This document shows, in pieces, positions 32,243 through 33,682 of a DNA stretch of 64,000 nucleotides; the stretch's first letter is position 1; each line of letters opens with the position of its first letter. The position numbers and the translations under genes were made by a program. The notes under the pieces were generated by a model, which saw only the letters and a list, made by a program, of their open reading frames with translations, was not told the DNA's origin and made no database searches. The DNA comes from Venenivibrio stagnispumantis (GTDB lineage Bacteria; Aquificota; Aquificia; Aquificales; Hydrogenothermaceae): NCBI RefSeq assembly GCF_900182795.1, contig NZ_FXTX01000005.1, positions 1 through 64,000 of the forward strand, written 5' to 3'.

Positions 32243-32890
32243 TTAATATAGATTCCAGAGAGCCTTTACCCCACTTATAATAAATTGAGACGCGATTGCT
32301 CCAACTATTAATCCCATAATCCTTGCAGTAATTTTTATACCAGTTATCCCTAAAAATCTATTTAAAATTACAGCATTTTTTAATGTATAGAATACTGTTA
32401 ATGAAGAAATAAAAATGGATATAATTAGCAATACTAAATCTAATAATGTTGAAACTTCTTCATAAAATACAATTAGTGTAGCAATAACTCCTGGACCAAA
32501 TAATATAGGTATTCCAAGAGGAATTATAGATATATCATCTATCTCTTTTGACTCTTCTGTTTTTTCTTCTGAATGATTTGTTTCTGAAATTTTCCCCAAA
32601 GCCATATCTAAGGCAATTTTTAATAAAACAATCCCACCTATAACTTTTATCGAGTCAATATCAATACCAAAAAGTTTAAATATATAATTACCTACAAAAA
32701 TAGTTAATAAAGATGCTATTAATACAGTTAAACTTGCTTTTAAACTAATAGAATGTATTTTTCTTCTTGGAGTGGATAAAGGGATTAGACTTAACATTAT
32801 AGCAGCTGCTTCTATTGGATTCAAAATTGTAAGCAGGCTTATAATGAAATGTAATAATATTTTCATTTCATTTAGAATATTTGTTTCCAT
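32243..32890 (-). CDS. MarC-family integral membrane protein
   Basis: 215 residues with six hydrophobic segments and the MarC/UPF0056 features LLTILNPIEAAAIMLSLIP near the start, RIMGLIVGAIASQFIISGVKAL at the end, and a hydrophilic loop around residue 115. Function unsettled; the name comes from a multiple-antibiotic-resistance locus, but a role in resistance is disputed. Convergent with the decayed end of the efflux operon. Confidence 0.88.
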   Translation of the reverse strand: METNILNEMKILLHFIISLLTILNPIEAAAIMLSLIPLSTPRRKIHSISLKASLTVLIASLLTIFVGNYIFKLFGIDIDSIKVIGGIVLLKIALDMALGKISETNHSEEKTEESKEIDDISIIPLGIPILFGPGVIATLIVFYEEVSTLLDLVLLIISIFISSLTVFYTLKNAVILNRFLGITGIKITARIMGLIVGAIASQFIISGVKALWNLY

Positions 32891-32976
32891 AATTTAATTC
32901 TCCAACCTCTAAAAATGGTAATATAAATATATTTTAACATAAATGGTTTTTTAAGTTTTTTCAAAAAAAAAAGAAT

Positions 32977-33072
32977 GGTATCGTATTTAATAGATGAAAA
33001 ATTATAAGAAGCTCCAATGTTTATTTCTCTTTTACCTGTATTTATATTTTATCATCTATTGTGTTGAATACC
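32977..33072. repeat. 96-base imperfect inverted repeat
   Basis: Left end GGTAT-N7-AATAGATGA (32977-32997) is mirrored by right end TCATCTATT-N7-ATACC (33052-33072); complementarity continues inward in A/T-rich sequence. The outer 5 and inner 9 bases of the arms pair perfectly with a 7-base mismatch at the same place in both. It lies between marC and the promoter at 33089. It could be a small non-autonomous mobile element or a structured leader. Confidence 0.55.
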
Positions 33073-33088
33073 TTGGGTTAAATATATC

Positions 33089-33117
33089 TTGTTTTATTCA
33101 TCTTTATAGCCTATAAT
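33089..33117 (+). promoter_or_regulatory. promoter of the cysteine protein-hemJ-nadC-leuB operon
   Basis: TTGTTT (33089-33094), 17 bases, TATAAT (33112-33117), 31 bases before the first start codon of the operon. Confidence 0.6.
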
Positions 33118-33148
33118 TATAGATAGCATTATAAATAAGAGGTAAAAA

Positions 33149-33682
33149 ATGGCTATTCAGGGTGAAATAAATGAAGAAGTTATATCTACGCTTGTAAATC
33201 TTTCCAAAAATATTCTTGGTGAAAATCTGGTAAATCAGTTATTAAACAATTTAAAATCCAAAGAAGGTACTGAAAATTTATCCGGAAAAGATATAGTTTT
33301 CGCTTTTGCTGATAAAATTCAAGAAATATTTGGTAATAACGGGGGGTATGCTATCATCAGACAACTTGCCAGAGAAGTTACAAAAGTTCTACAGGAAAAT
33401 AATCCAAGGGAAGAGTGGGAAGAGTTATTAGAAAAATCTCTTAATACATTTGGATTTGCTCATAAAATAGAAAGAAGCAAAGATGAAGCTTATATCTGTA
33501 ACTGTGTTTTTTATCCGGTATTAAAAGAAAAAGGATATGAACCAATAAAACATAGTGTATGCTGGTTTGGTTTGGGATTTATAGAAGGATTTGTTAGAAA
33601 GTTAGAAGAAGATGTTAAAGGGATTAAATGGGTTGAAAGAGATATACAAAATGAAAAATGTAAATTTATTTATCTACGCTGA
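33149..33682 (+). CDS. four-cysteine protein, perhaps V4R-like
   Basis: 177 residues, soluble. The N-terminal half is helical; the C-terminal half has Cys117, Cys119, Cys138 and Cys171 in the order CNC, HSVCWFGLGFIEGF, EKCKFIY. The spacing and glycine pattern resemble V4R-type small-molecule-binding domains (inference, not secure); the cysteines could hold metal, heme or an Fe-S cluster. Being first in an operon with hemJ and nadC is suggestive of a cofactor role. No recognised name. Confidence 0.6.
   Translation: MAIQGEINEEVISTLVNLSKNILGENLVNQLLNNLKSKEGTENLSGKDIVFAFADKIQEIFGNNGGYAIIRQLAREVTKVLQENNPREEWEELLEKSLNTFGFAHKIERSKDEAYICNCVFYPVLKEKGYEPIKHSVCWFGLGFIEGFVRKLEEDVKGIKWVERDIQNEKCKFIYLR

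Follow-up and report, generated by a model that had tools for sequence, protein, structure and literature searches.

An imperfect inverted repeat of 96 nt occupies positions 32977–33072 of the window (the whole stretch of 64,000 nt analysed here), and the question is whether it is a miniature mobile element, as guessed in the original prediction, a DNA or RNA element maintained by the host, or an accident of base composition. The repeat itself is real, with the arms lying where they had been placed: arm GGTATCGTATTTAATAGATGA is found at 32977–32997 (+) and arm GGTATTCAACACAATAGATGA at 33052–33072 (−), and the complete 34-nt arms match at 24 of 34 positions, the unique maximum among 63,904 window stretches of 96 nt. 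Within the window, the end pattern GGTAT-N{5,9}-AATAGATGA is confined to these two arms, and it did not occur in 100 shuffles. An inner repeat pairs 32989–33007 with 33042–33060 (19 nt, 89% complementary), and none of the listed reading frames of at least 60 aa overlaps the element. Folded as single-stranded DNA, the repeat is weak (z −1.58). The features of the locus are as follows.

32243–32890, − strand: gene of a MarC-family membrane protein, left neighbour (PF01914, E 3.8e-47)
32977–33072, + strand: window copy (96 nt) of the probable IS1-derived miniature element, aligned as one of six copies in the assembly
32977–33010, + strand: left arm, assigned from the arm comparison to the presumed IRR (right end) of the parental IS
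33011–33038, no strand: interior, lacking approximately 21 nt that are present in the other five copies (alignment gap)
33039–33072, − strand: right arm, a near-perfect match to the IRL (left end) of a broken IS1-like element at G000:C6:70877
33089–33117, + strand: promoter-like TTGTTT-N17-TATAAT, outside the element, recognized by eye
33149–33682, + strand: 177-aa gene without a Pfam match, right neighbour, with homologues (E up to 1e-10) in 28 of the family's 40 other genomes

The element thus sits in a 258-nt gap between the MarC gene (−) and the 177-aa gene (+). Of the original statement that it lies in the gap before a promoter, the position in the gap stands, while the promoter was seen only by eye and was not reported by the promoter scan, the count of which was at chance level (three found against 2.5 expected). 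The synteny comparison covered the window site, with 29 loci from other places that carry a homologue of the 177-aa protein, each merely 1.8–3.5 kb long; neither MarC nor three other neighbour proteins were found near the homologue at any of them, and no empty site in a relative was read.

Family members and related IS1 elements

The genome (G000; 1,561,122 bases in 41 contigs, with copies inside assembly gaps not countable) was searched with the DNA of the element, then with a 116-nt probe, and then with a sequence-only model of the copies. This yielded six full copies of 96–117 nt, dispersed and with unrelated flanks:

C5:32977–33072: window copy
C6:71558–71673
C2:76987–77102: C2a, first base changed
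C2:89607–89722: C2b
C10:50002–50117
C19:17704–17820, − strand

The six copies have model E-values from 8.4e-33 to 3.4e-22, and the next match in 41 genomes of the family is at 2.8e-4; under stricter filters, with 90 candidates scored per genome, no full copy was found in the 40 other genomes of the family. The copies in C10 and at C2:89607 are identical over 116 nt. The window copy is the most diverged one, with 75% identity to the 116-nt probe compared to 83–98% for the remaining copies, and its left arm is 86–89% identical to the left arms of the copies in C10, at C2:89607, and in C19 (E 2e-5 to 4e-5). The ends GGTAT/ATACC are kept in all six copies, save for one altered base in C2a. Further copies of the arms, proposed earlier as a check of the mobile-element reading, do therefore exist, with conserved ends.

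Throughout the genome, the pattern GGTAT-N{3,15}-AATAGATGA occurs in 14 places, against one for the reversed control. When up to three mismatches are allowed, the end pattern gives 289 places and its control 280, and thus weak copies are indistinguishable from chance. Partial matches on C3 and at C6:60508 were rejected as copies, being single ends. The plasmid collection contained no match to the element, and in viral contigs the 18-nt arm pattern matched 71 stretches, none of them with the full end GGTAT-N7-AATAGATGA, so the viral matches are taken as chance.

The interiors are weakly periodic. Among five distinct copies tested, C6, C10, and C2a have their best period at 21 nt (the value being reached by 0, 6, and 18 of 500 shuffles, respectively), C10 and C2a being near-identical. 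In C19 the best period is 27 nt, with 21 nt second (75 of 500 shuffles), and in the window copy it is 17 nt, which is not significant (116 of 500 shuffles). The window copy appears to have lost one unit of approximately 21 nt.

In three near-identical copies (C10, C2b, and C2a), TATTGG was noticed by eye at or just before the left end, shifted by 0, 1, or 2 bases (L004:1440–1450, L005:1439–1450, and L003:1494–1506). A target preference is possible; a related pattern, however, occurs 18 times in the window against 8.7 expected, and thus may be commonplace in this DNA.

The copy in C6 adjoins an IS1-like element, and another IS1 lies in C9:

C6:70869–71557 (L048:870–1558): truncated IS1-family element, adjoining the miniature element at C6:71558
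C9:530–1263 (L091), − strand: IS1, apparently complete, 734 nt, two frames, end type other than in C6

The end GGTATTCAATACAATAGATGATAAAATATAAATA opens the C6 element at 70877, and its frame (L048:941–1465, 174 aa) encodes an IS1-family transposase according to NF033558 (102.6 bits, cut-off 100), with the zinc ribbon PF03811 at 26.2 bits (cut-off 26.1). The transposase is incomplete, spanning profile positions 1–141 of 199, after which the miniature element follows at 71558. The right arm of the window copy is identical to the left end of this IS at 33 of 34 positions (97%, E 3.4e-9). The sharing of an end with a transposase-bearing element is hence shown for one of the two ends, the C6 element itself being broken, and no intact IS with exactly these ends was found in the assembly. 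As for the interiors of the miniature elements, their similarity scores to the IS interior were reached by 11, 19, 99, 137, and 263 of 500 shuffles (C2a, C19, C10, C6, and the window copy, respectively), and descent of the one from the other is not established by such sequence comparison.

The IS1 transposase is made through a frameshift between two frames. In the C9 element, the frames of 101 aa and 119 aa cover NF033558 positions 1–92 and 103–199, each singly below the cut-off (78.6 and 46.0 bits, respectively); the ends are alike at 19 of 24 positions, and the element is bordered on both sides by an exact 8-nt target duplication, AAAAGTTG. Its ends match the left end of the C6 IS at just 18 of 24 positions, and the left end of the C6 miniature element at 16 of 24, so the C9 element is a relative and not the parent. 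The C9 contig starts inside another IS1-type element, of which two frames (85 and 86 aa) lie at the edge, and the apparently complete IS1 is inserted beside the end of this one.

Other IS1 matter is more fragmentary. C17 contains a 123-aa IS1 fragment (NF033558 positions 1–103), while an IS1-like match in C12 (L093:1134–1871) was rejected, as the 245-aa protein has an initial zinc ribbon (NF050000, 51.3 bits) and is otherwise not IS1-like. In relatives, an end at a contig edge of G003 (L032) agrees with the C6 IS left end at 30 of 34 positions; by eye, an apparent gene start follows it. G017 (L030) has a lone end resembling the left arm of the miniature element, and in the sister genus G029 a 202-nt element (L045:1501–1702, G029:C88) combines two IS1-like ends with a transposase stub and lacks a target duplication; we read it as an independent case of internal deletion. 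Nine named loci carry a related transposase; seven of them are labelled Aquificota, Aquificaceae, Hydrogenothermaceae, or Persephonella, and the other two Arcicella and Gracilibacteria.

Given the six full copies and the right arm matching the end of the C6 IS1-family element, the window repeat is very probably a MITE of IS1 descent, one of a family of six copies, and the guess of a miniature element thus gains support from the conserved ends, one of them common to a broken IS1-family element. Such an element would have arisen by internal deletion, with both of the ends on which an IS1-type transposase would act by binding and cutting still in place; an enzyme expressed elsewhere in the cell could hence mobilize it in trans, and the one that moved the copies would have been the IS1 transposase. 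The window copy is probably inert by now.

Target duplications and placement of the copies

The original prediction suggested looking for target-site duplications at both ends. With offsets of up to 3 nt, and accepting exact repeats of 4 nt or more as well as repeats of 7 nt or more that contain one mismatch, an own direct duplication was found at none of the six copies, including both identical ones. In C6, the left ends of the IS and of the miniature element are preceded by the octamers TCCTCATT and AATGAGGA, respectively, which are reverse complements of each other. This is the sole exact pair of 7–10 nt among 18 ends (153 pairs, two modes), and by our estimate approximately 0.005 such 8-nt pairs are expected by chance (about 4^-8 each, at equal base frequencies); three imperfect AT-rich flank pairs from the same comparison were disregarded.

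For IS1 elements of this group in two related genomes, we compared four of 12 matches in G005 and four of five in G014. Seven of these eight loci are full-length near-identical IS1 copies of 736–738 nt, and the eighth, L098, has no match. Exact duplications of 8–9 nt flank four of the seven, or five of eight when the C9 element is added, and the other three (L096 and L097 in G005, L083 in G014) have none; thus, loss or absence of the duplication is not rare in this group.

When two ends are used in one transposition, their inward flanks must be reverse complements. The flanks of the IS and the miniature element in C6 are reverse-complementary, yet both ends face the same way, and same-facing ends with an inverted 8-nt pair are what intramolecular replicative inversion would leave. 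The truncated IS together with the miniature element looks like the remains of such an inversion. It is not a clean product, as a truncated IS is paired with a MITE, and it would need in addition either a later deletion or a transposition in which an IS end and a MITE end acted together. Intramolecular rearrangements mediated by IS1 are reportedly the subject of an earlier paper. For IS6-type replicative transposition, passages of one study describe duplication of the target in inverted orientation, and loss of flanking repeats upon intramolecular transposition (PMC7986276). Some moves of the miniature elements may have been replicative and intramolecular, splitting or removing the 8-nt target duplications. 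The stronger claim, that replicative intramolecular inversions and deletions, perhaps involving an IS end together with a MITE end, and not simple insertion are the main way in which the family spreads, with the copies marking rearrangement breakpoints between divergent transcription units and none retaining a direct duplication, we consider doubtful.

All six copies lie between divergent units, namely, MarC and the 177-aa gene for the window copy; aminotransferase and AdoMet decarboxylase; UDG and DNA ligase; ATP synthase A chain and YebC; MBL-rhodanese protein and GTPase; and, for the C6 copy, tRNA-Lys and a DUF4198 protein, with the IS remnant (+) in between. Among 17 window gaps of at least 100 nt, five are divergent, one of them being that of the window copy, and the probability of six out of six is then 6e-4 by gaps and 4e-3 by bases, for a bias that was noticed afterwards, on six copies, with a baseline of one 64-kb window with crude gene calls. 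The bias toward divergent gaps is suggestive.

This placement speaks for a DNA element maintained by the host in divergent promoter regions (a spacer, an insulator, or a protein-binding site), one that would have spread as a repeat and would now be regulatory, and the 21-nt interior period in three copies, about two helical turns, would also fit it. However, the bias carries the limits just given, and selection against harmful insertions, in operons and downstream of promoters, accounts for the placement equally well and may be enough to explain it; moreover, the neighbours have no common function, and no full copy was found under the stricter filters in the 40 other genomes of the family, which makes the host-maintained element improbable.

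A structured or cis-regulatory RNA is less probable still, and would hardly be our choice. The RNA fold of the window copy (−17.7 kcal/mol, z −2.86) speaks for it, but inverted arms of this sort fold anyway, the element lies, by eye, upstream of likely promoters on both sides, and an Rfam search of 32850–33200 gave nothing credible, the one match (15.5 bits against a gathering score of 51) lying outside the element. As for an imperfect inverted repeat arising by chance, the surrounding sequence is AT-rich, and the 9-nt core of the arm, taken by itself, is no less frequent than chance predicts (AATAGATGA, three matches against 1.98 expected); still, the arms are the best in the window, and the further copies, six full ones in all, already refute this reading, leaving it a negligible probability. 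We therefore retain the MITE of IS1 descent, most likely without any host function. Its copies would survive chiefly in gaps between divergent genes, where an insertion does little damage.

Comparison with known systems

The miniature elements share with the IS1 family (NF033558, represented here in C6, C9, G005, and G014) ends starting with GGTA, one of which agrees with the C6 element's end at 33 of 34 positions; a target pair of 8 nt, in inverted orientation, is seen at C6. They differ from the IS1 family in lacking a transposase gene, in their length (96–117 nt vs. 734 nt in C9 and 736–738 nt in G005 and G014), and in the lack of an own direct duplication at all six copies. REP/BIME elements are palindromes of 20–40 nt in very high copy number; by length and number, six copies of 96–117 nt are not of that type. 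The family is new, while its kind, a gene-less mobile element with IS ends, is well known; no description of an IS1-derived MITE in this group was found in literature titles and abstract openings. The analysis adds a probable IS1-derived miniature element family in an Aquificota lineage, being otherwise routine genome annotation. It also offers a modest opportunity to test whether inversions can be brought about by miniature elements, owing to the lack of direct duplications and the one inverted 8-nt pair set beside ordinary 8-nt duplications at the IS1 elements of the group.

Like other prokaryotic MITEs, as portrayed in parts of the literature (PMC10969869; SMN1 and SM3A of Sulfolobus, PMC3718332; MITEAba12, PMC6382973), the elements are short, non-coding, intergenic, and multi-copy, with inverted ends. 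Dependence on a transposase acting in trans, which they would share, is stated for SMN1 and SM3A in a passage of PMC3718332. The same source ties SM3A to ISC1058 and SMN1 to ISC1733, whereas the present MITE has IS1-type ends, and the term “IS1 family” is absent from the review on prokaryotic MITEs (PMC10969869). Direct target duplications are, in the wording of one paper, “frequently” contained in MITEs, and hence not obligatory (PMC4596501). The same paper describes BrickBuilt of Porphyromonas gingivalis, a MITE with an internal 23-nt repeat, comparable to the period of approximately 21 nt in three copies here, and with target duplications that are irregular there too (PMC4596501). The likeness is one of internal organization, BrickBuilt being a true tandem array in that account (PMC4596501), whereas the present MITE shows a weak periodicity.
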